Assembly: GCA_030123605.1 (NCBI GenBank)
Contig: CP126123.1
Location: 2,150,001 to 2,214,000 of the forward strand
Length of the DNA: 64,000 nt
Direction of reading: 5' to 3'
From: Nitrospira sp.
Lineage (GTDB): Bacteria > Nitrospirota > Nitrospiria > Nitrospirales > Nitrospiraceae
Part shown: positions 131-59,657 of the stretch, in pieces
Layout of the letters: every line of letters begins with the position of its first letter
Position numbering within the stretch: position 1 is the stretch's first letter
The notes under the pieces: generated by a model
Seen by the model: only the letters and a program-made list of their open reading frames with translations
What the model was told of the DNA's origin: nothing
Database searches by the model: none
Translations under genes and position numbers: made by a program

Positions 131-496
131 CTACCGCCTGCCGCCGCCGATCCCTGTTTCACCAACGTCCGTTCCTCCATTCGATCGCAGGCGTGACGGA
201 CTCCGACCCGCTTCCGGTCCGAGCAATCCGGAACCCGGTCCGATGGAGGGAGACAGGGGAGCCGTCGGTGTTCCGAGATCAGGACTCCGTGGCGGAACGT
301 ACGACTTCGGCGTCATGTCACGTTCTCGATGATTGAGCCCCCCTTCCCAGGAACTCCCCGGCGTCCGCATCATGTCCGACGATGCGGAAGGGTCGGCAGG
401 TCGAATTCGCTCCGATCCAAGGGACTGGCCCTGCGAAACGACAGGACTGGCGACCAACGACATGAACACGAATGCGATCAGCCCTCCGTGATTCAT
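131..496 (-). CDS. Small secreted Pro/Ser/Gly-rich protein of unknown function
   Basis: A 121-residue protein that begins with a hydrophobic stretch (MNHGGLIAFVFMSLVASP) and a likely signal-peptidase site after VVSQG. The mature part is short, polar and rich in Pro, Ser, Gly and Arg, with no domain I recognise. The start was chosen because its ATG overlaps the stop of the upstream cytochrome b gene in an ATGA arrangement, with GGA upstream; this suggests translational coupling to the bc operon. A role in the bc complex or in the envelope is possible but nothing in the sequence shows it. Confidence 0.5.
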   Translation of the reverse strand: MNHGGLIAFVFMSLVASPVVSQGQSLGSERIRPADPSASSDMMRTPGSSWEGGLNHRERDMTPKSYVPPRSPDLGTPTAPLSPSIGPGSGLLGPEAGRSPSRLRSNGGTDVGETGIGGGRR

Positions 497-1929: not shown

Positions 1930-1950
1930 GGGCTTGCATGCTCACGACTG

Positions 1951-2499
1951 CTACAGCTCGACCGGATGATCCAAACCGGATTTAAATTGCTGGTACTTGA
2001 CCCACAGCCGGCCCTGCTCCACCTTGGAGGGCAAGACGTCCAGCGGACGCGGAGCCGGTCCCGCCAGCACTTTCCCCGTCACGGCATAAACGCTGCCGTG
2101 ACAGGGGCACTTGAATTTCTTCTCGTCGCCGTCCCATCGGTAGCCGCACCCCAAATGGGGACAGATCGGAGAGAACACCACGACGGTGTCTGCCGATTGC
2201 TTGATCGCCCAGACGACCTTCTTCACCGTCGCCTGGCGCCAACCGTCCTTGACGCTATTCACGAATTCCACCTCCTCAGGCTCACCGGTACGGAGCCGGT
2301 CGATCGGACCGATCTCGTTCCAAAGCGCTTCGCGCCGCTTCAGAGCCGGACCCACCACGTACCCGATGAGGGGGATCGCCAAGCCGATTCCGATGATGCC
2401 CATAGCCACCGTGGTGACCCAGGCGAAGAACCGTCGCCGAGGTCCGACCGGTGTGGAAAGGACCGGCGTCTCGTCGAGCGGTGTCCCTTGCAACGTCAT
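1951..2499 (-). CDS. Rieske iron-sulfur protein of the bc complex
   Basis: An 182-residue protein with one N-terminal transmembrane helix (about residues 24-48) and a periplasmic Rieske domain. Both 2Fe-2S ligand boxes are intact: CPHLGC (113-118) and CPCHGS (131-136), followed by the usual GPAPRPL turn. It takes electrons from quinol at the cytochrome b site and passes them to the cytochrome c domain. The gene sits directly upstream of the cytochrome b-c fusion on the same strand, so the two form a minimal bc operon. It is distinct from the longer PRC-barrel/Rieske protein at 53-54 kb. Confidence 0.93.
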   Translation of the reverse strand: MTLQGTPLDETPVLSTPVGPRRRFFAWVTTVAMGIIGIGLAIPLIGYVVGPALKRREALWNEIGPIDRLRTGEPEEVEFVNSVKDGWRQATVKKVVWAIKQSADTVVVFSPICPHLGCGYRWDGDEKKFKCPCHGSVYAVTGKVLAGPAPRPLDVLPSKVEQGRLWVKYQQFKSGLDHPVEL

Positions 2500-44744: not shown

Positions 44745-44801
44745 CCGCCCGCCATATCGACGGCGTTGACAGGGTTCAGGCGCTCGGCTAAGGTCGGGCC
44801 C

Positions 44802-45692
44802 GTGATCGTCGCACCGGACTCAGCTGACCCTGCAACACCTCCATGGTCTTGGACCGCCGTCGGCGATCTGATCCGCCTTCGCAATCAATCCGGTACCTGG
44901 CTATTGATGTTGCCGAGCCTCTGGTCCCTGGTCTTGGCAAACGGCGGCCGTCCGCCGTGGTCCCTCATGGTCGTATTCGTCATGGGTGCCTTCGTCATGC
45001 GCAGTCTGGGTGTCGTCTTCAACGACTTAGCCGATCGCAATTTCGACAAACATGTCGCCAGGACCAGCGGCCGACCGCTGGCCGCCGGCCGGCTCGCGCC
45101 GCGACAGGCCCTCCTCGTCGCGTTGGTTCTTACGATCGTCGCAGCACTCCTGGTCGCAACCCTCAACACCTTTACCATGCTGCTGAGTCCTATCGCACTG
45201 GTGTTGGCCGCCGTCTATCCGTTCAGCAAGCGATGGATCCAGATCCCGCAAGCGATGCTCGGGATTGCGTTCGGATGGGGGGCCGTCATGGCCTGGAGCG
45301 CGTCGCGCGATCAGATCGACCAGCCGGCCTGGTGGCTGTTCGGCGCCACCATCTGCTGGGCCATCGCCTATGATACGATCTATGCCCTACAGGATCGGGA
45401 GGATGATCGCCGCATCGGAGTAAAATCGTCCGCACTGCTGTTCGGTGAGGCCGTACCGGCGGCGGTCGCTTGCTTTTTATTTGGGATGGTCGTCTGCCTG
45501 ATGGCGGTCGGATGGTTGTCCGGCCTTCGGATGGAATACTACCTGACCCTGGCCCTGATCACAGGACTGTTTCTCTTGCAGGTACGTCGGCTGAAGACCT
45601 CGATCACACCGCAAGCGGCTTTCGTCATGTTTCAGCAACATGTCTATGCCGGAATCGCGATCTTGCTCGGCATCTGGATCGGCGCCCTGTGA
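44802..45692 (+). CDS. ubiA: UbiA-family prenyltransferase (4-hydroxybenzoate polyprenyltransferase type)
   Basis: 296 residues with about nine transmembrane helices and both diphosphate-binding Asp boxes: NDLADRNFD and DREDDRRIGVKS. It attaches a polyprenyl chain to an aromatic ring in the inner membrane. Nitrospira respire mainly with menaquinone, so the acceptor could be a quinone or haem O precursor; the sequence pattern is nearest the UbiA/4-hydroxybenzoate group. The GTG at 44802 is preferred (AAGG nearby); a TTG at 44766 is in frame. It is divergent from the pseudo-caspase gene and convergent with the respiratory cluster, 17 bases apart. Confidence 0.8.
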   Translation: MIVAPDSADPATPPWSWTAVGDLIRLRNQSGTWLLMLPSLWSLVLANGGRPPWSLMVVFVMGAFVMRSLGVVFNDLADRNFDKHVARTSGRPLAAGRLAPRQALLVALVLTIVAALLVATLNTFTMLLSPIALVLAAVYPFSKRWIQIPQAMLGIAFGWGAVMAWSASRDQIDQPAWWLFGATICWAIAYDTIYALQDREDDRRIGVKSSALLFGEAVPAAVACFLFGMVVCLMAVGWLSGLRMEYYLTLALITGLFLLQVRRLKTSITPQAAFVMFQQHVYAGIAILLGIWIGAL

Positions 45693-45709: not shown

Positions 45710-46729
45710 TCAGTCGCCGATCTTACCCAAGGGTTTGTCCGGCTTGGGTGCGCGGAGCGTTTTCAAATAGAGCGCCACCGCCTTGGCATCGCCGTCGTTC
45801 AACCCTAAACTGGGCATACGGGTATCCGGCTTCATAGCTTGCGGATTCCGCAGCCAGCGATAGACCCAGGTCGGGTTCAGCCGAAATCCGGCACGGTCCA
45901 GCGCCGGTCCTACCTTGCCACCTTCGTCGCCGATCTTGTGGCAGCCGTTGCAGCCGTATTTGGTCACATAGAGTTGCTTGCCGACCTCGGCGAGTTTCGT
46001 CGCCGCTTCCGGCTTCATCGTCATATCCGGGCGGGCGATGTTGACTCCCTTGCCTGGCCTGGTCGTGAAGTTGGTGAGGGCGACGGTCGCCTGATCGAAT
46101 TCCTTCTTCGCTTGGCCCATGGCCTGCGTCTCTTTGGCATAGGCGTTGTCGTCGACTTCCACGCCCTTCTTGTCAGCCTCATCGCTGGCCTTCTTTTCCG
46201 CTTCCTGCGCAACGCGCTCGGCTTCCTTGAATTTTTGATCGGTTGCTTGGACCGCAGCCTGCAGGTCTTTCTTGCGGCCTTCCACGTTGAACTCCAATTT
46301 CTTGCCGTGCAACGACCGCACATATCCGACGATGCTCCAGATTTCCTCTTCCGACAACGTATACTTGAAAGTCGGCATGGTCGGGACCGCGAATTCATCG
46401 TCGCCGATCTTGTCTCCGCCCGGCCCCGTATCCTTCATATCACGCGAGATCGTGTTGAAGATTTCCTCATCCTTGAAGGTACCCATCTCTTCCTTATTGG
46501 AAAGGTCCTTCGGCTTGGGATCGGTCATCGAAGACCAGTTGAAACCTTCATTCTGTTTTCCGCTTTCACCGTGGCAATGCATGCAATAGTGCGCATAGAG
46601 CTTGTGGCCCTTCGCGGTCTGTTCATTCTGAAACATCGAACACCCGCCGGCTCCGACAAGGCCCGAAAGTCCGACCACGACTGCGACCGCTCCGATCACG
46701 CGTATTCTTCGCCACGCCCTCATGCTCAC
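45710..46729 (-). CDS. Di-haem cytochrome c lipoprotein, last gene of the respiratory cluster
   Basis: 339 residues with two CXXCH sites: CMHCH in the first domain (about 48-52) and CNGCH in the second (about 258-262), each with a later Met that can ligate the haem. A lipobox (GAGGC) after the N-terminal helix suggests membrane anchoring. About 80 highly charged helical residues (Lys/Glu/Ala, about 150-230) separate the two domains, probably a coiled coil. It overlaps the preceding gene by GTGA. It probably carries electrons between the bc-type complex and an acceptor. Confidence 0.85.
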   Translation of the reverse strand: MSMRAWRRIRVIGAVAVVVGLSGLVGAGGCSMFQNEQTAKGHKLYAHYCMHCHGESGKQNEGFNWSSMTDPKPKDLSNKEEMGTFKDEEIFNTISRDMKDTGPGGDKIGDDEFAVPTMPTFKYTLSEEEIWSIVGYVRSLHGKKLEFNVEGRKKDLQAAVQATDQKFKEAERVAQEAEKKASDEADKKGVEVDDNAYAKETQAMGQAKKEFDQATVALTNFTTRPGKGVNIARPDMTMKPEAATKLAEVGKQLYVTKYGCNGCHKIGDEGGKVGPALDRAGFRLNPTWVYRWLRNPQAMKPDTRMPSLGLNDGDAKAVALYLKTLRAPKPDKPLGKIGD

Positions 46730-47553
46730 GACCCTTTCTTTAAACGTCTCACGAGGACCAATTCAAACCCAAGCGCCAAGGCCACCGCGAGTAAGGCATA
46801 CATGTACGGTGAATAGTCGGGCGGCGCATCGGCTCGAAAATACCACCAGGACGAAATCGCTTTTTCAGAGCCTTTTTCCTTCGGCTGGCCGGTTTCGAGC
46901 TTCTTGCCGTCCCACACCGCAAACGCGATATTGATGAACTGCCCCGGAGAAAATTGCGTGTCCTCGGCGGGATATTCCGTCTGCAACGGACGCGAGAAGA
47001 CGACTTTCCACCCACCCCCTTGGAAAGCCCCCTTGGCGTTCACCGCCTGATGCGAATGCGGCTTGAGGGTTCCGAAGCCCTTCGCGCCCATATCGACGCC
47101 CTTTCCGTCCTTGTTCTTCCAGTACCAAATATTCACCGGGCCTCCCTCGACCTGGGCCATCGGCTGCCCGTGGGCAAAGTGGGCCTTGCTGTCGCCGACC
47201 ATAAACTCCAGGGCTGCGGCGTCGTCCGGATCTTCGGAGGGATCGGCGTATTCCAGGAGAATCGCGACGGTCGTCCCATCATGCAGTCCGCGGACTTTGA
47301 CACTTTTCGCCGTGACGTCGGTGATACGGACCGGCCAATGGACTTGAGGAGACAGGGGAAACTCCGCCAGAGACGCCGTCGCCCAGGCGGCGGCCGTCGG
47401 ATCATCGACCGGAAGAGTTCCCTTCACGAGGGCGGCACGTACCGCCACGCTCTGCTGGCTATGGACCGGCTGTGCTTCGACGACCAGGCACAGCCCGACA
47501 AGGCCGACAGCCCCAACCCACCATCTCGTTCCCGATCTCCTCACTCGTGCCAT
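46726..47553 (-). CDS. NxrC-like haem-b-binding subunit (ethylbenzene dehydrogenase/DMSO reductase gamma family)
   Basis: 275 residues: a signal peptide, an EB_dh-type periplasmic beta domain (about 40-245), and one C-terminal transmembrane helix (about 250-270). The domain has the family's DPTAAAWATA start, then FMVGDSKAHFAHGQPM, NIWYWKN and GGWKVVFSRPLQ; a Met/Lys pair in this fold normally ligates haem b. In Nitrospira such proteins are thought to be gamma subunits of nitrite oxidoreductase or other membrane-anchored electron-transfer subunits. No NxrA/B is nearby, so here it may serve the bc/CydA-like complex. Confidence 0.8.
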   Translation of the reverse strand: MARVRRSGTRWWVGAVGLVGLCLVVEAQPVHSQQSVAVRAALVKGTLPVDDPTAAAWATASLAEFPLSPQVHWPVRITDVTAKSVKVRGLHDGTTVAILLEYADPSEDPDDAAALEFMVGDSKAHFAHGQPMAQVEGGPVNIWYWKNKDGKGVDMGAKGFGTLKPHSHQAVNAKGAFQGGGWKVVFSRPLQTEYPAEDTQFSPGQFINIAFAVWDGKKLETGQPKEKGSEKAISSWWYFRADAPPDYSPYMYALLAVALALGFELVLVRRLKKGS

Positions 47554-47592
47554 ACGTTCCCCTTAATTGCTCGCGGTCCCTGATCGGAGAAA

Positions 47593-48318
47593 TTATTCGG
47601 ACTCATCCCATGTCCTGGGTTTTTGTCCTGCTCCATCGTATTCGCCCATGATGACCTTCCAGATGTCTTCGTCGGACATCTCAAGCTCCCATCGCGGCAT
47701 GGCTGACTTCCAAGGCATGCCCTCGACGGGCAGCCCTACGCCGCCCCTCTTGATCCGCCAGAACAGGTAACTCTCCTGTAACATGGCGATCGTCGTAGGA
47801 TCTTTGAAATTGGCCGGAGGCGGGGTAAAGGCGGCGGCGGCAAACCCCTTCCCGTCGAAATTTCCATGACAAGGCGCGCAGCGGGAGGCATAAAGCCCCT
47901 TGCCGTACATGATGTTGTCCGGGGTCTTCGGAACAGGATTCGAAAGACCGGTGAATTCGCCCGGCGGGGCCGGATGAATCGTACGGTTTTCCGCTGGCGG
48001 CGCGTCGCTGGAAGCGGTGCTGCCGTACGTTTGCCATCCCACGAGCAACGGAAACAGCGCCAATACCACATACCGTGCACTGCTCAACGCCCCTCCGCCC
48101 TCACCGGTCATAAACCGTACGATGGGACCGAAAAACGCGTCTTTGGATGCTCCGCTCAACGTGGCGAAAATCACGATGCCTGCCGTGGTCAACATCAGAT
48201 AGAGAAAGATCAAGCTTGAAGGCAACGGCGCGCTATGCGGCAGGTTGGGAACGATAAATTTCAAAAAGAGATAAATGAGGACCGTGAGAATGACCGGCCT
48301 GACGAGTACGCCTCCCAT
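47593..48318 (-). CDS. Membrane-anchored mono-haem cytochrome c
   Basis: 241 residues. Two or three transmembrane helices occupy the first 95 residues, followed by one cytochrome c domain with CAPCH (about 146-150), Met in GMPWKSAMPRWE as possible sixth ligand, and EDIWKVI, typical of class I cytochromes c. It lies between the NxrC-like and next cytochrome genes in the respiratory cluster. It probably receives electrons at the periplasmic face. Confidence 0.85.
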   Translation of the reverse strand: MGGVLVRPVILTVLIYLFLKFIVPNLPHSAPLPSSLIFLYLMLTTAGIVIFATLSGASKDAFFGPIVRFMTGEGGGALSSARYVVLALFPLLVGWQTYGSTASSDAPPAENRTIHPAPPGEFTGLSNPVPKTPDNIMYGKGLYASRCAPCHGNFDGKGFAAAAFTPPPANFKDPTTIAMLQESYLFWRIKRGGVGLPVEGMPWKSAMPRWELEMSDEDIWKVIMGEYDGAGQKPRTWDESE

Positions 48319-48344
48319 ACTTTCCTCCTCTACTTCACCGACGA

Positions 48345-48965
48345 CTATCGAACCTGCGCAACCGCGAGCGAACCGGCATCGGCGGCCTTGACCGGCGCCG
48401 GAGCCGTGCGCGGCAGGTCCAGTTCCGACGGGTTCACGCTGATCGGTTCGCCGCTCATCTGCTGCAAGAACGCAATGACCGAGAGAATTTCATTCTTGGA
48501 CAACCCGATAGGATTCTTGTTGATGTACGGCATCCGCGCCGGGTACTCCTTCGGAATCCCTTCATGGCGATAATCCAAGTAGAGATAAGCCTGCGGTTCC
48601 GTCAAACTTTCAAAAATGAATTCGCGTGACAGCTTGGCGCCGATCCCTTTCAGGTCAGGGCAACGGGCCGATTCGCTCGGGCCGATGGAATGGCACAGCG
48701 CACATTGTCCCTTGCTGAAAAAGATCTTTTGTCCAATCGTGGCCATGTCGGTCGGTGTCTTGATATCGGCGATGTTGATGCTTTCCTCGGCCGGCGGCAA
48801 CGACGCCATCTGCGGAACGGCGAGGGCGACGAGCGCGAACAACCCGAGAACAATCGCCACAAAGCCGATGACTCGTGTAAATTGCGACTTGATGAACAGG
48901 AGGATCACCGTTCCCAAGCCGACGACACAGAGACCGATTAGCTGCAGTTTGACTACTTCACTCAT
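48345..48965 (-). CDS. Membrane-anchored mono-haem cytochrome c
   Basis: 206 residues with two N-terminal transmembrane helices (about 5-50) and one CXXCH site (CALCH, about 88-92) in a class I cytochrome c domain; ARMPYINKN provides the likely Met ligand. A similar arrangement in the neighbouring gene suggests duplication. It is separated from the upstream CydA-like gene by 65 bases that hold a perfect hairpin. Confidence 0.85.
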   Translation of the reverse strand: MSEVVKLQLIGLCVVGLGTVILLFIKSQFTRVIGFVAIVLGLFALVALAVPQMASLPPAEESINIADIKTPTDMATIGQKIFFSKGQCALCHSIGPSESARCPDLKGIGAKLSREFIFESLTEPQAYLYLDYRHEGIPKEYPARMPYINKNPIGLSKNEILSVIAFLQQMSGEPISVNPSELDLPRTAPAPVKAADAGSLAVAQVR

Positions 48966-48993
48966 AGAGCCCCTTCAGGTAGTGATGAGTGGT

Positions 48994-49025
48994 GAGTTCT
49001 GAGTTCCACTCAAAACTCAGAACTC
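48994..49025. terminator. 12-bp perfect hairpin inside the respiratory operon
   Basis: Arms GAGTTCTGAGTT and AACTCAGAACTC enclose an 8-base loop. It lies between the CydA-like gene and the next cytochrome gene, read leftward. There is no T-run after it. It could attenuate transcription or protect mRNA ends and so lower expression of the last four genes. A similar AACTCAGAATTC motif follows immediately. Confidence 0.45.
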
Positions 49026-49030
49026 AGAAT

Positions 49031-50917
49031 TCATAACTTGGGCGCTGTCGATTCATCCAGGGCCGGCGCTCCTCCCGCCATGGCCGGAATGCCTCCCGGC
49101 TCGACTTGCCCTTTGGAGCCTGCCGCCGCCTTCGCCTTGTCTCCCATCGTGGCCACCCAGAAAATAAAGGCCACCAACATGCAGAACAGGAAGGTGTTCA
49201 AGGCCATGAACGCCGCGGCATACCCGAGTGCGGGGGAGAAGGCGTATTGAGACGAATCACGCATGACCCCGTACACATGCCAATGCACCCGCGAAGAGGA
49301 CCGCGCATACCCCATCAGAGTCATCAGTAGAATGACCATGACCGCATTCAGCACCAGCGAATACCCGGCGCGCGGAGGCATTTTCCCCCAAACCATTTCC
49401 GTGGTGGTCTTCGCGCTCTTCAGCAACAATGCAGTCAGGGGCGTAATCGTCAGCATCACGAAGATCACGATGCCGACCTGCGAGGTGGAGAAGTAGTTGA
49501 TGCGAATGATGGCCGGGACAAAGTAGCCCCACACACCGAGCACGATGACCGCGAGACCGGCCAGGGCGAGAACCGCGCCCATGACGGCTTTGGCCACCTT
49601 CGCCCATCCGGCCGTATCGACCTTTCCCGCTCGCCAGTACATGATGAAACTCATGAACGTCACGAGCACCATGAGGTTGGAAACGGTCATCTTGGCCGAC
49701 ATAACGCCGAACACACCCAGCAAGGGGTGGTGGGTGCCTCCCATTTTTTGCGCTTCTTCGAGGCTGGCGACGAGCGAGTGCGGCGTCATCCAGACCGCGA
49801 GGCACAACAGGAGAATGATCAACATCGCCATGATCGGTTTACGGTACTGACCTTCCGACCCCGGTATTCGATGGGTGATGCCGAGCCAAAAGTAGTAATT
49901 TGACCCAAGAAAGAGCACTCCGATCAGCATGGCTTGCAGGATGAACAACCAGGACAGAAATCCGCCCATGAGTGTGATACCCATCTGCTGGTTGTACTGA
50001 TAAATTTCGCGCATCAACCAATAACCGGCGAACGGCAGGGGCAGCAGACCGAACACCCCGATGAAGTTGCCGACATACCCCATCCAGTCGTAGTGGTACC
50101 GTTCCTCCTGGCTTTTCGCGGAGAGATACCTGATCCCGGCATAGGCGCCGCAAATGTAGCCGCCGAGCACCACGTTGGCAATCAACCGGTGAATGTTCAC
50201 CGGCCACCAGGTGGGATTCCACGTTGCAGCCCAGGCACGCTCAAAGTCGGTCCCCTCGGCGATAACGACCGGGCTGGCTTGGAACGTCGCCCACGAGTTC
50301 GGCACGATCATGATGAAGAAGGCGAAAACGTTCAGCAGGAAACCGAGGAAGATGTGAAACTTCTTCCCGTTACCTTCCGCCATCGCATCCCATCCATACC
50401 AGTAGAGGTAGAGGGTCGCGGTCTCTACGAGGAACAAGGCGCAATAGACGAGGAAGGACGGAAAAAAGACATCCGTGAGATAGGCCATCAGCTTCGGATA
50501 GAAGCCAATCAACAGAAACAACAAAATACCGCCGAACAGGGCGGTCGTGGCATATGAAGAGGTCAACAGCTTGGTAAATTCCTTCGCCAACTTGTCGTAC
50601 CGCTTGTCTCCTGATTTCCACCCGACGATCTCGCACAACCAGGCAAAGATCGGTACGCCCAACACGAAACCCGCGAGCAGGAGATGGAGCTGGGCGATGA
50701 CCCAGACGATATTACGACTGCCCATGAAGGGAACGTCCCGATAGGCGGTTTGCGGTGCGGCGCCGGACTCTTGAGCCAAAGTCAATTCGGGAATCCCAAC
50801 CAGCCCAAGCAACACGGCGCATCCGGCCAGCAAGGCCACCGGACCTGCAAGCTGACGCCTCTGATTTGCGACCACCCGACCTTGGTGCTCCATTGTTCTC
50901 ACCTCGTCATTCGCCAT
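49031..50917 (-). CDS. CydA-like membrane protein (bd-type oxidase subunit I family), long form
   Basis: 628 residues with about 14 transmembrane helices. The first helix has VIAQLHLLLAGFVLG; the histidine is where CydA binds its high-spin haem. Later the protein reads RVHWHVYGVMRD, resembling the GRQPW.VYG.L region of CydA but altered, so the quinol-site motif is not canonical. No CydB partner is present; the proteins around are bc subunits and cytochromes c. It may have lost quinol oxidation and instead take electrons from cytochrome c. It starts 4 bases after the upstream gene; an ATG 24 bases later is an alternative. Confidence 0.8.
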   Translation of the reverse strand: MANDEVRTMEHQGRVVANQRRQLAGPVALLAGCAVLLGLVGIPELTLAQESGAAPQTAYRDVPFMGSRNIVWVIAQLHLLLAGFVLGVPIFAWLCEIVGWKSGDKRYDKLAKEFTKLLTSSYATTALFGGILLFLLIGFYPKLMAYLTDVFFPSFLVYCALFLVETATLYLYWYGWDAMAEGNGKKFHIFLGFLLNVFAFFIMIVPNSWATFQASPVVIAEGTDFERAWAATWNPTWWPVNIHRLIANVVLGGYICGAYAGIRYLSAKSQEERYHYDWMGYVGNFIGVFGLLPLPFAGYWLMREIYQYNQQMGITLMGGFLSWLFILQAMLIGVLFLGSNYYFWLGITHRIPGSEGQYRKPIMAMLIILLLCLAVWMTPHSLVASLEEAQKMGGTHHPLLGVFGVMSAKMTVSNLMVLVTFMSFIMYWRAGKVDTAGWAKVAKAVMGAVLALAGLAVIVLGVWGYFVPAIIRINYFSTSQVGIVIFVMLTITPLTALLLKSAKTTTEMVWGKMPPRAGYSLVLNAVMVILLMTLMGYARSSSRVHWHVYGVMRDSSQYAFSPALGYAAAFMALNTFLFCMLVAFIFWVATMGDKAKAAAGSKGQVEPGGIPAMAGGAPALDESTAPKL

Positions 50918-50921
50918 GATG

Positions 50922-51944
50922 TCACTTGCCGCTTCCCGCCGTCTTTCCGGCAGCCGGCTGCGAAGCCTTTCCCTCATTCTTGACGGCGCTTTCTTTGACA
51001 CCGGCTTTGTCTTTTCCACCCTTTGCCTTGTCTTTCTCCTCTTCGGCCGCCTTCTGCTCAAGCGCCGCAATCTTCAATTCCGCGTCCTTAAAGGTCTTCT
51101 CGTCCTTTACGAGCGACTTTTGCGCATCGAAGGGAGCCGTCGCTTTCGCGTCGGGAGGCTTGCAACATTCGTGGGGATGGGGTGTCGAGACGGGAAGGAC
51201 GGCCCAAAACAGAATGCTCAGCACAGCTCCGGCTCCCGTAAAGGCCGTCAACATCAAGCTTTGATCGGCCGGAACTCGAATCATATCCCAACGCGAAATC
51301 AGCTCTTGATAACTATCGTTGGCCGGTTGAGCGGTTGCGGCCTGCCCTCCCGCTAGTTTCCCCAGAATCGTCAGGCCGATGTACGTCAGCGCTAACAGGA
51401 CGACCAGGGAAACACTTCCCCAGGTCGTGAAGTCCAGCCCGATCCGTTCGGCCACCGGGAGGTGTTTGAGTGCCTCCATGTCCAAGATGGATTGGGTGAC
51501 GGAACGAGCCAGGTCGGTCGCCCCACCTTCAATCAGCCACAAGAGAGGAAGGTAGAGGGCTCCCGCCATTGCAAACCTGCACCAAAGGCTGACCCCAAGT
51601 CCTCCCGGCGGTTCAAGACGCAGTCGTTCTAAAAAAACCGTTCGTGCCACGAGGTTCAAGGCCCAGATGTCGACAGGAATAGCGAGTAGGAACAGCAGGG
51701 GAAGCCCGGTACCCTCTCCAAAATGGAAGCCCACTCCAAGTGAGATCACAAAAAACGCAAAGACACTGACCGGGCTCATGAGCAGCATCAGGAACGTGAC
51801 GCCGAGCTTGGTTTCCAGATGGATGGACCCCATCGCCAGAAACAGCAGGGCGAAGGCCATCTTGATCGGCAGAGCGGTCCAACAGGCAGGCCACAGGATA
51901 CTCAGCCCCAACTTGAATGACGACATCGTCTCTCGACCAGTCAT
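50922..51944 (-). CDS. Membrane protein of unknown function with charged C-terminal tail
   Basis: 340 residues. About six transmembrane helices fill residues 10-250, followed by an extended tail of about 80 residues made mostly of Lys, Ala, Glu and Asp (about 265-340), likely a disordered or helical extramembrane segment. A HPHECCKPPD motif with His and two Cys begins the tail and could bind metal. It lies between the cytochrome b and CydA-like genes, 18 and 4 bases away, so it is probably a subunit or assembly factor of that complex. No family known to me. Confidence 0.55.
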   Translation of the reverse strand: MTGRETMSSFKLGLSILWPACWTALPIKMAFALLFLAMGSIHLETKLGVTFLMLLMSPVSVFAFFVISLGVGFHFGEGTGLPLLFLLAIPVDIWALNLVARTVFLERLRLEPPGGLGVSLWCRFAMAGALYLPLLWLIEGGATDLARSVTQSILDMEALKHLPVAERIGLDFTTWGSVSLVVLLALTYIGLTILGKLAGGQAATAQPANDSYQELISRWDMIRVPADQSLMLTAFTGAGAVLSILFWAVLPVSTPHPHECCKPPDAKATAPFDAQKSLVKDEKTFKDAELKIAALEQKAAEEEKDKAKGGKDKAGVKESAVKNEGKASQPAAGKTAGSGK

Positions 51945-51962
51945 GTACCCAAGACCCTCCGC

Positions 51963-53078
51963 CTATTCGAGAAATTCGCGGTTAATGATGGCCGCTACGG
52001 TGAAAATCAACATGGTCGCCATGACCACAATCCACCCGATCAAGGCGATCGGCCGTTTGAAGATATTCCGTTCCGGGTCGCGATCGATGAAAGGCAATGC
52101 CGCCAAGAGAGCCATGAACGCGCCGGGCAAGGCGATGGCGCCCAGGAACTGTCCGAATTCTCCGGCGAAGACCTTCAGGCGCAGCAACTGGAACAAGAAG
52201 AGGAAATACCACTCCGGTTCGGGGTGGTAGTCTCCTGGGTCCGGGGTCGCCTCTTCGAGAAGCACGATCGGCTCCCAAAAGGCCAAGCTGCATATGGAGA
52301 GGAACACCACGACCATGCCGACGATGTCTTTCCAAATTTGTCGCGGAAAGAAATAGTCGGTCTTCGCTTTAATTTCTTCGACGCTGCCGCGGAACGGTCC
52401 GGCAGGACCGGCCGCGCGGAACAAGAACAAGTGCAACCCCGCCAGCCCCATCAAGGCCGCCGGCAACACCATGACGTGAATCACGAAGAAGCGGCTCAAC
52501 GTCATCTGCCCCGGTGTCGGCCCTCCCTTGAGGAACCGAGCCATAAAGTCACCGACCACCGGCGTCTTGTCCATGATCTCGACGCCGACCGTCGTGGCCC
52601 AGTAGGCCCGTTGATCCCAGGGAAGCAAGTAGCCGGTGAAGCCGAATCCCATCACGACCCCGAAGAGCGCCAGTCCCACCAACCAGATGAGTTCGCGAGG
52701 TTTCTTATAAGCGCCCCAGAGGAAGACCTGCGACATGTGCGCGAAGACACAGACCACCATCGCCGTGGACCCCCAGAAGTGATAACTCAGGAGAAACCAA
52801 CCGTAATCCACGTTATGGATGATGTACTGGGTGCTGGCATAGGCATGGTCGGCGGTCGGGACGTAGTAGAACATCAGCAAGATGCCTGTAACCGCCTGCA
52901 TGATGAAGATGAAGAGCAGGACGGAGCCGAAGACATAGGCCCAACGCGACCCGCCCGGGACCGGTTCGTTGAGCATCTTGGCTTGCAGGGTCTTGAGCCC
53001 GACACGTTCATCGACAAAGGCCAAGACTTTTTCGATGGCTGAGGGCTGCGTGCTTGTCGGCTGTGTAGTCGTATCCAT
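51963..53078 (-). CDS. Cytochrome b of a bc-type complex (b6/IV fused)
   Basis: 371 residues with about eight transmembrane helices. One His pair flanks LLSYHFWGSTAMVVCVFAH; the second pair (FFVIHVMVLPAALMGLAGLH) has 14 residues between, as in b6-type proteins. The quinol-site motif PEWY follows. It lacks the cytochrome c domain fused to the paralogue at 0.5-1.9 kb. It overlaps the Rieske gene by one base. Confidence 0.92.
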   Translation of the reverse strand: MDTTTQPTSTQPSAIEKVLAFVDERVGLKTLQAKMLNEPVPGGSRWAYVFGSVLLFIFIMQAVTGILLMFYYVPTADHAYASTQYIIHNVDYGWFLLSYHFWGSTAMVVCVFAHMSQVFLWGAYKKPRELIWLVGLALFGVVMGFGFTGYLLPWDQRAYWATTVGVEIMDKTPVVGDFMARFLKGGPTPGQMTLSRFFVIHVMVLPAALMGLAGLHLFLFRAAGPAGPFRGSVEEIKAKTDYFFPRQIWKDIVGMVVVFLSICSLAFWEPIVLLEEATPDPGDYHPEPEWYFLFLFQLLRLKVFAGEFGQFLGAIALPGAFMALLAALPFIDRDPERNIFKRPIALIGWIVVMATMLIFTVAAIINREFLE

Positions 53079-54025
53079 TAGACAATCCGAACCTGGGCCT
53101 TCGTGCCCGCCTTGAATTCCATATCGATGATAGCGATGTCACCCGTGGCGGTGACCCTGATCGGCAACGGGTCCAATGGGCGCGGAGCCGGCCCATCCAA
53201 GACCTTGCCGGCGGCATCGTAAATGCTCAAATGACACGGACAGAGAAACACCTGCCCCAAAATCTTGTGGGTCCGCCATTTGAATCCACACCCGAGATGT
53301 GGACACTTACCGGAAAATGCGATATAGGGCACATCCTTCTTGTTGGTCCAGATAGGTTTCCCATCGGCGCCGTGGAATTCCATATCCTTCCCCTGATAAA
53401 TACTCTCCAAGACCTTGGGCGTCGCCTTCAGCACCCACACATTCTTATCGATTTCCTGCTCCGGCATGTAGGCTTCTTTGACCTTGCGCTTATATTTGTA
53501 CTGAACGCCGACGTCCTCCTGCTTGATCTTTCCGGAGTTGCCGATATTCAGCCACCCGTTGTCGAAAGGGGCATACATCGGTTTCATCAGGTAGCGCAGG
53601 ACGGGAAACGCGAGCGGCAAACCGATGAGGAAACCGATCGCATGGGTAAAGTTGGCAAAAAAGGTCCGGCGCTTGACGCTGCGCTCCAATTCGGGAAATG
53701 GGACCAGCACTTCGCCCGGCGTCACATGGATGTTCTCTTCGAGGTGGGCGATTTCCACCTCGTGTGTCGTGACGTAATCGTCGCGCTTGAAGGCCGGCAA
53801 TGAAGCATACTCCGCCGACGAACCACGAAGCGTCACCACCTCTTCCGTCACGTCCCGAACCTGTCCCATGGGGACCTGGCGCTCGACCGATCCTGCCTCG
53901 TCGCCACCCACCACGATGTGGCTGATTTCGTGAGCCAGCGGATCCATGATGACCCGGCGCACTTGCCCGACTTCACCGTCCGAACAACGAACTTTGGATT
54001 TCAGTTTCGGCTGCATGGTGCTCAC
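53078..54025 (-). CDS. PRC-barrel / Rieske fusion protein
   Basis: 315 residues. Residues 1-90 resemble a PRC-barrel (KVRCSDGEVGQVRRVIMDP, then ISHIVV), followed by a linker, a transmembrane helix (about 130-150, GFLIGLPLAFPVLRYLM) and a Rieske domain with CPHLGC (about 245) and CPCHLS (about 263). The second box has Leu where Gly is usual. An N-terminal PRC-barrel is rare in Rieske subunits; it could be a docking or regulatory module. It overlaps the upstream cytochrome c and downstream cytochrome b genes by a few bases. Confidence 0.88.
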   Translation of the reverse strand: MSTMQPKLKSKVRCSDGEVGQVRRVIMDPLAHEISHIVVGGDEAGSVERQVPMGQVRDVTEEVVTLRGSSAEYASLPAFKRDDYVTTHEVEIAHLEENIHVTPGEVLVPFPELERSVKRRTFFANFTHAIGFLIGLPLAFPVLRYLMKPMYAPFDNGWLNIGNSGKIKQEDVGVQYKYKRKVKEAYMPEQEIDKNVWVLKATPKVLESIYQGKDMEFHGADGKPIWTNKKDVPYIAFSGKCPHLGCGFKWRTHKILGQVFLCPCHLSIYDAAGKVLDGPAPRPLDPLPIRVTATGDIAIIDMEFKAGTKAQVRIV

Positions 54026-54828
54026 TTCATCTTGATCGGCTTCGGAGTATTCACCGAAGCGTTCTTGAAACCGGCCAGCCAGACCGCCAGGGCCTGCACG
54101 TCACCCGGCTCCATCAGGTCCTTATACTTATCCGGCATCTTTCCCTTGTCGTACTCCTGCTCAAAGCCTTCCGCCTTGTAACTCTTGGGGTCGAGAATCT
54201 TTCTGGCGATTTCATCGGCCGACAAGAGACTTCCGATATTGTCCAACTCGGGCCCACGCTTCTTCCCGCCTTCGCCTTTCAATTTATGACAGTTGTAGCA
54301 TTCCTGGAGTTGCCATTGTTCCTCGCCCAACTTGGCGACATCCCCGGTCGCCGCTGCGGTCGTAGCCGTCGGTGCGCTGCCGCCACCGGCCTTTTGGTCG
54401 GCAGGGGCCTGGGCCGCGCCCAGCGCCTGCAATCGAGCGGTCAACTCCTTCGCTTTTTCATCCAACGCCTTGGCGCGCTGCAACAAAACGTCCACCTTGC
54501 CCGCTTCGAAGTGTTCGCGCTTCGGCTTCAAGATCTTCTCGATCTTGCCTTTTTCGTCTTCGGGATCGAACTGCGGCCACATCGCCCCGCCCGCAATGTA
54601 CGCCACCGAGAGGATCACATAGAACATGATGAGGGCTCCGACGGCCTTTGCGCCTCCGAACGGCTTGACCGCAGGAAGGTCGAGAACAATGAACACCAGG
54701 GCTCCAAGAATCGCGTAACCGAAGAACAACGCCTGGAACACGAACGGAAAGCCCAGCGCGTTGGTCGCACCGAACAGAATCCCACCGATCACGATTCCCA
54801 CTATCGATTTCTTGATCACGTTTCCCAT
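54022..54828 (-). CDS. Membrane-anchored mono-haem cytochrome c with coiled coil
   Basis: 268 residues: about three N-terminal transmembrane helices (5-90), a charged helical segment (about 100-150, with KAKELTARLQALG), an Ala/Thr linker, and a cytochrome c domain with CYNCH (about 188-192). It ends four bases inside the Rieske start (overlap). It probably hands electrons from the Rieske protein to the next acceptor. Confidence 0.87.
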   Translation of the reverse strand: MGNVIKKSIVGIVIGGILFGATNALGFPFVFQALFFGYAILGALVFIVLDLPAVKPFGGAKAVGALIMFYVILSVAYIAGGAMWPQFDPEDEKGKIEKILKPKREHFEAGKVDVLLQRAKALDEKAKELTARLQALGAAQAPADQKAGGGSAPTATTAAATGDVAKLGEEQWQLQECYNCHKLKGEGGKKRGPELDNIGSLLSADEIARKILDPKSYKAEGFEQEYDKGKMPDKYKDLMEPGDVQALAVWLAGFKNASVNTPKPIKMK

Positions 54829-54854
54829 GAATGCCCCTCGTTATTCAGGTCTCG

Positions 54855-56558
54855 TCACTTGGCTCCCGCCGGCACGGGACTTCCTTCATGCCCATGATCC
54901 TTCGACGGCACCGCACGCAAAGTCACGATAATAGCGAAGCTGACGACGGAGAAGAACACGATACTGATACCCGTAATCCACCACGCCGAGTAGGCCAGCG
55001 TGGGGGTAAAGGATTCGGCGGTGAAATCAGGCAGCAAGTTGTAGGTATGGAAATATTTTCGCAGCATCGACCGAATCCCGCCCATGAGACCCATCGTCCA
55101 AATCATACTGAAGGCCAGAAAGACCAGCACGAATTGAGAGACGAAGTCGATGCGCCCCCAGATGATCGTGCCCTGCGAAACGGCTCGATTGTAGATGACG
55201 TAGTTCACGACGGTCACGAAAACCAGGGTAAAGGCCGCCGAATTTTTCGCCGGCATGAGCGCAAGGAAGTTCCAATCGGACGGCAATTCCAACTCCGCAA
55301 CCAACTTGGCGCCGGTCGGCACGAATCCGTGCGGCGTCATCCAGATGGCATTCCCGACGACGATCATCAGGAAGCCGACCTTGATGACAGTACTCGATGA
55401 AACGGTCAAAGGGATGAATCGTCCCAAAATCACAGGCGCCAACAGGAGCGGCAACAGGAAGGCCAGCGACGTTGCGTCCGGCACCGGGTAGTCCGTGAGA
55501 ACCTTCGTCATGACGATAGGCAGCAACACCATCACGATCGGGGCGACCACGGTCATGCGGACGCGTTCAACCCCTTCGATCCGCTTCATGCTCAGCCAAA
55601 TGTAATAATTGCTGGCTAGGAAGATCAAACCGATCATGGCCCCCTGCATTTCAAAGAACATCGACAGCTGGTCGGCCATCATGTAGGGGCAAATCGAGGC
55701 ATCGTAATCGCACAGTTCGTACGCGTAGAGATATCCCATGAACGGCAAGAACAACAACGCTCCGACACCGATCATGTTGCCGACAAAACCCATCCAATCG
55801 TAATAGGCTTGCTCTTCGTCCTTCTTGGCGCCCAAGAACATATAGGCAGCAATCAGCCCGGCGACGAATCCGCCGAACGTCACGTTCCCGACGAGGCGGT
55901 GAAGGTTCATCGGGATCCAACTGTAATTGAAAATCTTGTCCCACAAGGATGCGCTGGCCAGAAAATCAGCCGGCGACACGCCCTCGGCCTTGACTGGGGT
56001 ATTCATGAAGGACGTCGGTCCGTCGATCACGAACAACGTGATCGTTCCGATCAGATTCAGCAAGACACCCAAGGCAATGTGACGCCCCTTCTTCTCTCCC
56101 TTCCATGCATCCCAGGTATAAAAATACATGTACAGAATGATGGTTTCCGCAATAAACAATAGTGGATAGACGACAGCGAAAATCAGGAAAAAGTGATTGA
56201 TCAACCACGTGGTGAATTGCGGATAGGTCGCCAGCAACACAAAGATGAACAGGCCTCCGGTCAGCGCAGTCATGCTGTACAGGATGACCGTCACCTTGGT
56301 GACCTCTTTCGCCAGCCTGTCGTAACGCGGGTCCTGCTTCCGATACCCCAGCCATTCCGAAATGACGACGAAAATCGGAGCCCCGAGGATGAATCCCGCA
56401 AAAAGGATGTGGAGCTGAGCGACGATCCATACCGCCGTGCGATTCCCGGTATAGGGGAATTCTACAGGGGGCGCACTGGGAGCCTGCGCATACGCGACCC
56501 CTCCCAATATCGCCACAAGCGCGAACATGACCATTAAACAGCGCTGCCAGATTTTCAT
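54855..56558 (-). CDS. CydA-like membrane protein (bd-type oxidase subunit I family), short form
   Basis: 567 residues with a signal sequence and about 13 transmembrane helices. The first helix (IVAQLHILFAGFILGAPIF) matches the paralogue at 49-51 kb with its His retained. The C-terminal region that holds GRQPW in CydA reads GIRSMLRKYFHTYNLLPD and so departs further than the paralogue does. No CydB. The two copies in one operon suggest a heterodimer that replaces CydA/CydB or a subunit pair unique to this lineage. Confidence 0.78.
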   Translation of the reverse strand: MKIWQRCLMVMFALVAILGGVAYAQAPSAPPVEFPYTGNRTAVWIVAQLHILFAGFILGAPIFVVISEWLGYRKQDPRYDRLAKEVTKVTVILYSMTALTGGLFIFVLLATYPQFTTWLINHFFLIFAVVYPLLFIAETIILYMYFYTWDAWKGEKKGRHIALGVLLNLIGTITLFVIDGPTSFMNTPVKAEGVSPADFLASASLWDKIFNYSWIPMNLHRLVGNVTFGGFVAGLIAAYMFLGAKKDEEQAYYDWMGFVGNMIGVGALLFLPFMGYLYAYELCDYDASICPYMMADQLSMFFEMQGAMIGLIFLASNYYIWLSMKRIEGVERVRMTVVAPIVMVLLPIVMTKVLTDYPVPDATSLAFLLPLLLAPVILGRFIPLTVSSSTVIKVGFLMIVVGNAIWMTPHGFVPTGAKLVAELELPSDWNFLALMPAKNSAAFTLVFVTVVNYVIYNRAVSQGTIIWGRIDFVSQFVLVFLAFSMIWTMGLMGGIRSMLRKYFHTYNLLPDFTAESFTPTLAYSAWWITGISIVFFSVVSFAIIVTLRAVPSKDHGHEGSPVPAGAK

Positions 56559-56600
56559 GATGTCTCGCCGCTCCTCCTCATCGTGGCCCGTAGGTGTGCC

Positions 56601-57152
56601 TTACTTGCCCGTCTCTGCCTGCGCGGTCTGCAGGCCACCCGCCACTGCAGCCGACTTTACTTGGTCGGCAGGAACCCAATCTTTCTTGGCGGGATCCCAA
56701 CCCTTCCCTGACAAACCGAACGTCCGCTCGAACGCCATGATCTTCCAACGGTCCTCTTCGGACAACTTGCTCTTCCAGGGCTTCATCTTGGTGTTGGGGA
56801 CGCCCTCTGAAATGCGCCAGAACCAAACCGAATCGGAATACATCTTCATCCGGTCGCCGTTCCGAAAATCCCGCGCCCCGGCCTTGACCGGCTTACCGTC
56901 CTTGCCGTGACAGCTCGCGCAATTCACATCGGGGTTTTTCCCGCCGATATACAACTCACGGCCCTCTTCGATAATCTTGGGATCTGCCCACCATCCAGCA
57001 GGCATATGTTTGTCGGCATACTCCGCTGGCGCCGGCGGCGGAGGAACGATCGGTCCCTCACCTCCCCCTTCACCGCCACACCCCACCACGGCCAACCCGA
57101 ACCCGATGATGCCGGCCACCAGAGCCAATCTATTCATGCCTGCCTGTTTCAT
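56601..57152 (-). CDS. Mono-haem cytochrome c lipoprotein
   Basis: 183 residues with a lipobox (AVVGC, about residue 24), a Gly/Glu/Pro-rich linker and one cytochrome c domain with CASCH (about 70-74) and KPWKSKLSEEDRW downstream. AAGGAG precedes the ATG at 57152 but at a long spacing; an ATG 15 bases on is possible. It heads the run of bc/CydA-like genes and is 210 bases downstream of the gene at 57363. Confidence 0.85.
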   Translation of the reverse strand: MKQAGMNRLALVAGIIGFGLAVVGCGGEGGGEGPIVPPPPAPAEYADKHMPAGWWADPKIIEEGRELYIGGKNPDVNCASCHGKDGKPVKAGARDFRNGDRMKMYSDSVWFWRISEGVPNTKMKPWKSKLSEEDRWKIMAFERTFGLSGKGWDPAKKDWVPADQVKSAAVAGGLQTAQAETGK

Positions 57153-57362
57153 AGAAAAATTCCCGCTCCTTTCTGAATGCCGACGCTTGCTCGAACGTCG
57201 CCACCATCGCCCTTGACGGAAAAAAAAGACGCTTCCCCGAAGCTCAGAAAGCAGCTCCAGCAAAAGCGTCAAGACTCACAATACAACGAGGTCACGTTTG
57301 GACTTCCCCGCCCACGTCATCCTATTCGATCCGGCGAGGAACAATGCCGCACGGACCGTACC

Positions 57363-57941
57363 CTATTTCTGCCGCTTCCCCTGCCCCTTCCTTCGCCGTT
57401 GCTCTTCACGCATCCGCTTGCGGGAGATCTTTAGCCCAATCAATCCCACAATAGCAACAGCCGCGACGCCGAGCCCATACACCAACCACTGCGGAGGACC
57501 GAGATCACGCTCACACCCACTCCCGATATCGACTCGAAGCGTACGCTCCGTCTCCAAATCATTCGGGTCGAATTGGATCTTGAGATTTCGCTGCTCCCCT
57601 CCGGCTTCAACCAGCAGCGGATCGCCTACATTGTCATTGTGCAGATGGAGGGTGACTTTATAGTACCCATCGTCATCCGTCGTGACGGTCTGACCGACCG
57701 TAACTCTCGTATCTTTAACCAGAACCTCGGCCTTCGTACTGGCACGGCCGTCTTTGCCACACACAAATCCTTCGACCGTGAACCGATGGTCTGCGGCGTG
57801 GCTCGCAAACAGGATCGCCGGTATGAGCAGCGCCCCGATCAGACCACATGTGCCGACGAACTGACGGGCGGTCTTCCTTCCGATTGGTCTCCGCCCTCGC
57901 ATACGTATGGCTCGTATCTGGACTATTTTGGCCTCACTCAT
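57363..57941 (-). CDS. Exported membrane-anchored protein, beta-sandwich, unknown function
   Basis: 192 residues: an Arg-rich N-terminus and signal/anchor helix (about 26-45), a beta domain with two Cys (FVCGKDGRAS and GSGCERD) resembling carboxypeptidase-regulatory or transthyretin-like folds (TTDDDGYYKVTLHLHND), then a transmembrane helix (about 155-172) and a very basic tail. The start is uncertain. It is the first gene of the respiratory cluster and may be an assembly factor for its periplasmic parts. Function unknown. Confidence 0.55.
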   Translation of the reverse strand: MSEAKIVQIRAIRMRGRRPIGRKTARQFVGTCGLIGALLIPAILFASHAADHRFTVEGFVCGKDGRASTKAEVLVKDTRVTVGQTVTTDDDGYYKVTLHLHNDNVGDPLLVEAGGEQRNLKIQFDPNDLETERTLRVDIGSGCERDLGPPQWLVYGLGVAAVAIVGLIGLKISRKRMREEQRRRKGQGKRQK

Positions 57942-58189: not shown

Positions 58190-58579
58190 CTACAGGTGAC
58201 CTCGAGCCTTCGCGTCCGCCTCCACCCGATCCACTTCCCGCCGTCGTTCCGAGTCTTTTTTGGCCACCCAGGCTTCCCAGGATTTCCCCGTGGCCGTGTC
58301 TTCGCCAGTGAAGGCGACCGCCGCCACTTCCGAGAAGGGAATCGTCATGGTCCCGCTGCTGATTGCCGGAAAGAGTTCGATGGTGGGTTGCTCCCCTGTC
58401 GCCGTTCGGTTGAAGAGATACCCCGTGACCTGGCCGCCCGACTTCAACTCGACGGTGATATCCCCGCGATAATCGAATGCGAGCTCGATCGCTTCTCGCA
58501 ATTCGTCGAGAGAGGCAGGGCGAAACACCTTCCCTTCGAGGCTGCCCTGCTCCGGCGCATGGTACTTGGCATCAGTCAT
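58190..58579 (-). CDS. Conserved-looking small protein next to hpnH
   Basis: 129 residues, soluble. It opens with a helix (SLDELREAIELAFDYRGD) and then VELKSGGQVTGYLFNR and FSEVAAVAFTGEDTA, a beta-rich pattern like an SH3-type or Sm-like barrel. There is no signal peptide. It lies 61 bases downstream of hpnH on the same strand and is probably cotranscribed; a role in hopanoid tailoring is suggested only by position. Confidence 0.6.
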   Translation of the reverse strand: MTDAKYHAPEQGSLEGKVFRPASLDELREAIELAFDYRGDITVELKSGGQVTGYLFNRTATGEQPTIELFPAISSGTMTIPFSEVAAVAFTGEDTATGKSWEAWVAKKDSERRREVDRVEADAKARGHL

Positions 58580-58640
58580 TTCGAATCCGTCGTTTGTCGT
58601 TCATGACTTGCAGTCAGTGGGAATTCTTCACACTTCACGG

Positions 58641-59657
58641 CTATCTGACATTCGGCAGCAACGTGATCTTCACTGTCTTCGCAAACCCGGACAGGGACCC
58701 GAACGTGTCTTCCACCGCCGAGGCTTCATAGCCGCAATGCACCATGCAGTCCGCACATTTTTCGTTGCGCCCGGTGCCGTAGGAGTCCCAGTCTGTCTTC
58801 TCCATCAACTCGCGAAAGCTTGCGACATAACCTTCCTGGAGTAAATAACAGGGGCGTTGCCATCCGAAGACGTTGTAGGTCGGATTCCCCCAGGGCGTAC
58901 ATTGATACTCACGCCTGCCCATGAGGAATTCCAAAAACAACGGCGACTGATTGAACTGCCAGCCGCGCTTCCGGTTGCTCAGAATCTTGGAGAACAATTC
59001 CGTCGTGCGACTGCGCTTGAGAAAATGCTGCTGGTCCGGCGCTTTCTGGTAGCTGTAGCCGGGTGAAATCATCATCCCCTCGACGCCGAGCGCCATCATC
59101 TCGTCGAAAAACTTCCGCACCCGCTCCGGGTTGGCGTCATCGAACAGGGTCGTGTTGGTCGTGACCCGATGGCCGCGTTTCAGCGCGGCCTTGATGGCCT
59201 TGACCGCCACATCGTAAACCCCGTCGCGGCAGACAGCCAGGTCATGCTCGTCCTTCAGTCCGTCCATGTGCACGCTGAAGGTGAGAAATTTCGAGGCCTG
59301 GTACTCATCGAGCTTTCTCTCCAACAGAATCGCATTCGTGCAAAGGTAGACGTACTTCTGACGGGCCACGAGCCCGCGCACGATCTCCGGCATCTCCGGA
59401 TGGATCAGCGGCTCGCCACCGGGAATGCTGATGATGGGCGCGCCACATTCATCTGACGCAGCCCAACATTGTTCCGGCGTCAACCGCTTGTCCAGCACAT
59501 GGTCCGGATATTGAATCTTGCCGCAACCGGCGCAAGCGAGATTGCAGCGAAACAAGGGCTCGAGCATGAGCACGAGCGGGTACCGTTTGACCCCCCTGAG
59601 TTTCTGGGTCAACACGTACTTGGTCACTGTATACATCTGGGAGACTGGAACAGCCAT
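58641..59657 (-). CDS. hpnH: Adenosyl-hopene transferase HpnH (radical SAM)
   Basis: 338 residues. The radical-SAM cluster motif is CNLACAGC (C38, C42, C45), followed by GGEPLIHPE and later a C-terminal SPASM-like Cys set (CTPWGNPTYN, RPCYLL, CADCMVHC). This matches HpnH, which joins 5'-deoxyadenosyl to hopene as the first step of extended (C35) hopanoid synthesis. AGGAGA precedes the ATG. No squalene-hopene cyclase lies within the window. Confidence 0.93.
   Translation of the reverse strand: MAVPVSQMYTVTKYVLTQKLRGVKRYPLVLMLEPLFRCNLACAGCGKIQYPDHVLDKRLTPEQCWAASDECGAPIISIPGGEPLIHPEMPEIVRGLVARQKYVYLCTNAILLERKLDEYQASKFLTFSVHMDGLKDEHDLAVCRDGVYDVAVKAIKAALKRGHRVTTNTTLFDDANPERVRKFFDEMMALGVEGMMISPGYSYQKAPDQQHFLKRSRTTELFSKILSNRKRGWQFNQSPLFLEFLMGRREYQCTPWGNPTYNVFGWQRPCYLLQEGYVASFRELMEKTDWDSYGTGRNEKCADCMVHCGYEASAVEDTFGSLSGFAKTVKITLLPNVR

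Follow-up and report, generated by a model that had tools for sequence, protein, structure and literature searches.

Nitrospira are widespread nitrite oxidisers, and for a few cultured species the literature states that no oxygen reductase besides the OR-N type is present. In Nitrospira moscoviensis, a complex III (CIII_1), bd-like_1 and bd-like_2 (putative complex IV), cytochromes c and alt_nxrC_1 are encoded in one highly expressed region, for which a III-IV supercomplex was proposed (Mundinger et al. 2019, PMC6606698). In this region two cytochrome c genes lie between bd-like_2 and alt_nxrC_1, the latter being a protein of 30.5 kDa with a signal peptide and one transmembrane helix (PMC6606698). 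OR-N2 (NIDE0901-like) is described as forming, together with OR-N1, a CydAA' oxidase likely using cytochrome c (Murali et al. 2021, as cited in PMC12342949 and PMC10839748). Nitrospira inopinata and N. moscoviensis contain methyl-plastoquinones only (E0' 57-59 mV); in the scheme of the same paper, reverse electron transport begins with complex III operating backwards (PMC12324825). Here, we analysed a window of 64,000 nucleotides (contig CP126123.1, positions 2,150,001 to 2,214,000) from Nitrospira sp., the genome of which is a single contig of 4,316,411 bases. The window contains a respiratory cluster of 12 minus-strand genes, g1-g12, at positions 45710-57941, all of which we could confirm in place and order. 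The cluster itself is already described and not new; what we add is the conservation of its order in 44 of 47 loci, a map of kept and lost residues, its occurrence in genomes without detectable NxrA and variants lacking g8.

We consider it fairly probable that the cluster encodes a bc/OR-N III-IV assembly transferring electrons from quinol (via the bc part) or from nitrite (via cytochrome c) to O2. The electron donor of its bd-like enzyme is probably cytochrome c, and the acceptor, as we infer, O2. The sequence-only reading of this DNA had suggested a hybrid complex with bd-type subunits either accepting electrons from cytochrome c or acting in reverse electron flow from nitrite to quinone. 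The first possibility, which is also a published hypothesis, agrees with the order-wide synteny, the loss of the quinol residues and the lack of a haem-copper oxidase; the second one is weakened by our analyses. The family scans bear out the gene content read from the letters, i.e. a PRC/Rieske protein, cytochrome b, two CydA-like proteins, five cytochromes c and an NxrC-like subunit, with the PRC domain matching only weakly. The genes are, in the order of transcription:

g1, 57363..57941, minus strand: secreted or anchored carboxypeptidase-regulatory-like protein of 192 amino acids (CarboxypepD_reg E 8.8e-5, below cut-off)
g2, 56601..57152, minus strand: monohaem cytochrome c (Cytochrome_CBB3 E 1.3e-8), one CXXCH
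g3, 54855..56558, minus strand: CydA-like protein 1 of 567 amino acids (PF01654 E 6.5e-24, residues 40-285)
g4, 54022..54828, minus strand: cytochrome c (Cytochrom_C E 3.1e-8), one CXXCH, three predicted N-terminal transmembrane helices
g5, 53078..54025, minus strand: Rieske protein (Rieske E 2.8e-8), intact CPHLGC...CPCH
g6, 51963..53078, minus strand: cytochrome b (Cytochrome_B E 1e-47, Cytochrom_B_C E 6.3e-9)
g7, 50922..51944, minus strand: membrane protein, five predicted transmembrane helices
g8, 49031..50917, minus strand: CydA-like protein 2 of 628 amino acids (PF01654 E 3.5e-11)
g9, 48345..48965, minus strand: membrane-anchored monohaem cytochrome c (Cytochrom_C E 1.6e-7), one CXXCH
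g10, 47593..48318, minus strand: membrane-anchored monohaem cytochrome c (Cytochrome_CBB3 E 1.5e-8), one CXXCH
g11, 46726..47553, minus strand: NxrC-like protein/type II dimethyl sulfoxide reductase haem b subunit (EB_dh E 6.9e-22)
g12, 45710..46729, minus strand: dihaem cytochrome c (Cytochrom_C E 5.4e-18 in two stretches), two CXXCH

The order of g2-g12 is conserved far beyond this genome (loci are labelled L, genomes G and families f1-f4 and f9). Among 47 loci of at least 20 kb from named genomes, 44 contain all 11 genes in order, including the near relative N. defluvii (FP929003; L165, g3 94% and g8 91% identical to Nitrospira sp.) and N. moscoviensis (L146, complete for g2-g12; 89% and 85%), and of the loci retrieved for families f1-f3, those long enough keep g2-g12 in order. 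We found g3 in all 97 sampled Nitrospirales genomes, and the search with g8 gave matches in 94/94 genomes, in f4 consisting only of bd-like_3-type relatives (45-46%) or g3 itself. As both the sequences and the arrangement of g2-g12 are conserved throughout the order, we do not regard the cluster as a product of chance. The bc and CydA-like parts, whose separation in relatives had been named as speaking against a joint complex, co-occur nearly without exception within the order. The three exceptions among the 47 loci are L127, L196 (f4) and L202. We did not take L127 for a true variant, as its shortened Rieske gene and a run of 300 N in the locus make an assembly fault possible. The f4 loci retain g2-g6, a short g7 and g9-like and g12-like genes, with g8, g10 and g11 being gone, and L202 contains g2-g6 and a g12-like gene without g8. 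In the tree, the f4 g3 proteins fall inside the g3 clade beside f1-f3, with the class-level g3 proteins outside (support 84-85 at those forks); a loss of g8, g10 and g11 in f4 is suggested.

Both CydA-like proteins match PF01654 and Pfam scans of the cluster genes revealed no CydB, as the sequence-only reading had claimed. Using the numbering of E. coli CydA, the alignment with which is uncertain in the C-terminal half, g3 and g8 both keep the equivalents of H19, H186, E107 and R448, and in both the quinol residues K252 and E257 are replaced, confirming the altered quinol motif noticed earlier. The AlphaFold2 models of g3 (predicted local distance difference test, pLDDT, 81.5) and g8 (pLDDT 79.2) have bd CydA as the best match in the PDB (Z 33.0, 351 aligned residues, 3.7 Å and Z 26.8, 349 aligned residues, 3.4 Å, respectively), followed by ActF of alternative complex III and PsrC (Z 13.9-23.5); by sequence, no solved structure closer than CydA was found. 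In g3, H50, H160, H220 and H504 are invariant in 27 sequences, and in g8 the same holds for H188, H243, H397 and H547 in 36 g8/bd-like sequences. H78 and H380 of g8 are kept in 33/36 of these, the exceptions being the NXR-linked proteins (NXR, nitrite oxidoreductase) of L104, L106 and L108, which have M instead of H78 and R instead of H380 and also carry the changes Y158F, H396T/I, M535L and H545N. As the three form one clade, we count these changes as one evolutionary event, hinting that H78 and H380 may serve one site. The proteins g3 and g8 fall in two distinct clades, encoded together, and the names OR-N1 for g3 and OR-N2 for g8 follow the published pairing and assignment rather than a tree with the Murali data set. 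Besides one canonical CydA, the Nitrospira sp. genome encodes four bd-like proteins, two of which are g3 and g8. At the positions equivalent to E107 and E304, the fourth CydA-like paralogue, bd-like_4 (L065, 15006-16871), has T and S, respectively.

A haem-copper oxidase (PF00115, COX1) had no match anywhere in the Nitrospira sp. genome, in N. defluvii or in any of the four f4 genomes. Outside f4, 18 Nitrospirales genomes were searched: a full-length PF00115 match (E below 1e-50) was obtained in three and a weak partial one in six, with nine giving none.

The bc part is encoded by g5 and g6. Cytochrome b g6 is composed of a b6 part fused to a subunit-IV-like part (E 7.7e-64 with the b6 model and E 6.6e-6 with the subunit IV model, neither reaching the cut-off) and contains the haem pairs H-x13-H and H-x14-H and the PEWY motif. 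For g5, the top NCBIfam model is the b6f protein PetC, below cut-off, and its N-terminal PRC-like domain rests on a weak Pfam match (E 0.028, below cut-off). No family model for cytochrome c1 or f matched among the cluster genes in Pfam and NCBIfam scans, and g4 is a candidate cytochrome c1 analogue. The five c-type cytochromes (g2, g4, g9, g10, g12) carry six CXXCH motifs in total; the N-terminus of g2 is hydrophobic with a Cys and lipoprotein-like, and an N-terminal Cys motif suggests g12 to be a lipoprotein. The NxrC-like g11 has a C-terminal transmembrane helix and reaches E 3.5e-29 with TIGR03477, its score of 101.6 being under the cut-off of 169.85; it fits the description of alt_nxrC_1, with g3 in place of bd-like_1 and g8 corresponding to bd-like_2.

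These features can be combined into a route in which g6 and g5 would oxidise quinol and reduce the membrane-anchored cytochromes c g4, g2 and g12. The g3/g8 pair would then be reduced by those cytochromes or, with electrons coming from NXR, by g9/g10 and g11, the NxrC-like haem b protein. The pair would stand in for CydA/CydB, its quinol site lost, and act as a cytochrome c oxidase reducing O2. If nitrite is the donor, electrons would enter g3/g8 via cytochrome c and the bc part may run backwards, making quinol. For reverse electron flow, the bc part and the separate bd-like_3 module are better candidates than g3/g8: a flow to quinone via the CydA-like proteins is weakened by the loss of the quinol residues, by the adjacent bc part, which can do this job, and by the separate bd-like_3/alt_NxrC_2 cluster, for which that role was proposed. 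The cluster is the leading candidate for the Nitrospira terminal oxidase.

The link of the cluster to NXR is weakened by our searches. NxrA and NxrB are not located beside g11, the NxrB copies of the genome being at 4.13 and 4.16 Mb. We used NxrA as well as NxrB since in draft genomes NxrB cannot be relied on by itself: G016 has the full cluster and NxrA fragments, yet no close NxrB. At a threshold of E 1e-10, neither the four f4 genomes nor G194, G199, G247 and G276, which are class-level genomes (96-99% complete), gave an NxrA match; in draft genomes a missing match is not proof of absence, and NxrA fragments do show in f2 draft genomes. G194 and G247 (L093, L095) have the same cluster order except for g7, and so does G199 (L094), in which g10 was not called. 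In the variant of G276 (L096), which is cut by the end of the locus, g8 is fused to a cytochrome c, and there are two additional membrane proteins. That several NxrA-negative genomes contain the cluster speaks against its being specific to nitrite oxidation, and an association with NXR as a general rule was dropped after the NxrB and NxrA searches.

Several observations weigh against a III-IV assembly with g3 and g8 as its oxidase. Both proteins further lack E99 and E445 of the canonical oxygen-reducing site (the call for E445 being uncertain), so the chemistry must differ. In two lineages, i.e. f4 (L196, L197, L199) and L202, g3 and the bc genes occur without a g8 in the cluster, so an obligate g3-g8 pair is not universal, and as f4 has no haem-copper oxidase, its oxidase would have to be g3, bd-like_3 or a possible CydAB. 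Relatives show g8-type proteins beside NXR-like genes and g3-type proteins beside genes of other molybdenum enzymes, and our literature search found no biochemistry, complexome or cryo-electron microscopy work directly on the Nitrospira oxidase. Alternatively, g8-g9-g10-g11 could be an NXR-to-quinone module, acting as a cytochrome c:quinone oxidoreductase using the proton motive force rather than as an oxidase, with only the bc part and perhaps g3 in the forward chain. A similar arrangement lies beside NxrA/B-like genes in L104, L106 and L108, the bd-like_3 cluster likewise joins a CydA-like protein, cytochromes c and an alt_NxrC, an NXR-to-quinone role has been proposed in the literature for the bd-like proteins shared with anaerobic anammox bacteria, and the models resemble the ActF and PsrC families. 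We nevertheless judge this unlikely, since the three NXR-linked proteins are a clade apart that has lost H78 and H380, both of which g8 keeps, class-level genomes have g8-g11 in the cluster with no detectable NxrA, and K252 and E257 are absent.

Somewhat less probable still is that one operon encodes two enzymes, transcribed together without being physically joined: a bc complex to which g3 belongs as an accessory subunit, and a cytochrome c oxidase based on g8. This would explain g2-g6 without g8 in f4 and L202 and is in line with g3-type proteins without bc genes (L097-L099, L191) and g8-type proteins without g3 elsewhere; both halves are, however, found together in fixed order in 44/47 loci, and the published authors prefer a supercomplex and a CydAA' pair. 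That unrelated respiratory genes are merely neighbours with no shared function is very improbable: g1 and g7 are indeed poorly conserved and the modules occur apart in other taxa, but the order is fixed across three families and beyond the order, the junctions are short or overlapping and the whole region is highly expressed in N. moscoviensis (PMC6606698). We therefore prefer the bc/OR-N III-IV assembly. The cluster's occurrence without detectable NXR and the variants with and without g8 offer natural comparisons parting the oxidase question from the nitrite question, and H78, H380, H188 and H547 are the residues singled out in g8.

The modules of the cluster can be followed in relatives. Outside the class, g3-type proteins (L097, L098, L099, L191) adjoin genes of molybdopterin and iron-sulphur subunits with no bc genes within reach, and g8-type/bd-like_3-type proteins have cytochromes c and an NxrC-like gene as neighbours in many loci; in L104, L106 and L108, a CydA-like protein and two cytochromes c are followed by NxrA/B/NxrC-like genes. 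Judged from gene order, the cluster looks like a fusion of g3-type and g8-type modules with a bc complex. Tentatively, and with less confidence than in the III-IV assembly itself, we suggest that it may represent an ancestral, NXR-independent III-IV assembly of the class. A cytochrome c-CydA-cytochrome c module and a CydA-cytochrome c-cytochrome c-NxrC-like module would have been joined by bc, the second module losing a haem site (H78 to M, H380 to R) where it serves an NXR-like enzyme. If true, the same scaffold would reduce O2 in one context and conduct electrons in the other. As a separate observation, L113, L114 and L117 encode a g8-type protein with a cytochrome c motif (775-831 amino acids) beside two membrane proteins of about 500 amino acids; this set may correspond to TO_2, a complex of Manganitrophaceae described as having two MrpD-like subunits.

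The borders and less conserved members of the cluster were analysed as well. The junctions of g2-g12 are at most 65 bp apart or overlapping, measured between the ends of the open reading frames (ORFs), with 42 bp between g2 and g3. Upstream of these genes, g1 is separated from g2 by about 210 bp; it adjoins g2 in f1 and f2 loci, is not found or has 25-37% identity in f3 loci and is a doubtful member. Membrane protein g7 has no Pfam or NCBIfam match and an identity of 28-83% across loci, mostly 29-56%; its counterpart in f4 has 172 amino acids and matches g7 residues 222-256, one f9 genome has only a short ORF at this position and the ORF in L095 has 121 amino acids. For g8, a start at the ATG at 50917 is more likely than the TTG of the mechanical ORF 49031-51070, which overlaps g7. 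The genes flanking the cluster or encoded elsewhere in the window include:

UbiA-family prenyltransferase, 44766..45692, plus strand: PF01040 E 4.1e-59, convergent neighbour and not a cluster member
129-amino-acid protein without Pfam family and radical SAM/DUF3463 protein, 58190-59657, minus strand: upstream, at the same place in most Nitrospirales loci
second complex III, 493-2499, minus strand: cytochrome b with a fused cytochrome c domain, plus a Rieske protein; resembles N. moscoviensis CIII_2

Among the complete Nitrospirales loci analysed for it, UbiA lies at the same end in all but L142, L161 and L168, in which the locus ends early; it is possibly linked to the methyl-plastoquinone of Nitrospira.

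In comparison to known systems, g3 and g8 share the fold and the H19, H186 and E107 equivalents with canonical CydAB and differ from it by the lack of CydB, of K252/E257 and of E99 and E445, and by a longer C-terminal half. With bc1/b6f complexes, the cluster shares the cytochrome b haem ligands, PEWY and the Rieske cluster motif; g6 has the b6f-like x14 spacing but subunit IV fused, g5 carries a PRC-like domain and the three-transmembrane-helix g4 is in place of cytochrome c1/f. The resemblance to alternative complex III is restricted to the ActF fold, no Act-type genes being found among the cluster genes in Pfam and NCBIfam scans. The bd-like_3/alt_NxrC_2 cluster at 4.085 Mb of the same genome and its anammox counterpart share the CydA-like gene followed by cytochromes c and an NxrC-like gene; the bd-like_3 cluster differs by its separate clade, the lack of adjacent bc genes and a dihaem alt_NxrC. 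OR-N CydAA' has in common with g3 and g8 the CydA fold, the loss of the quinol residues, the kept haem His residues and two different CydA-like proteins encoded together. The closest match is the described region of N. moscoviensis, which has the same genes in the same order, including g8-g9-g10-g11, differing from the cluster reported here in the species only.

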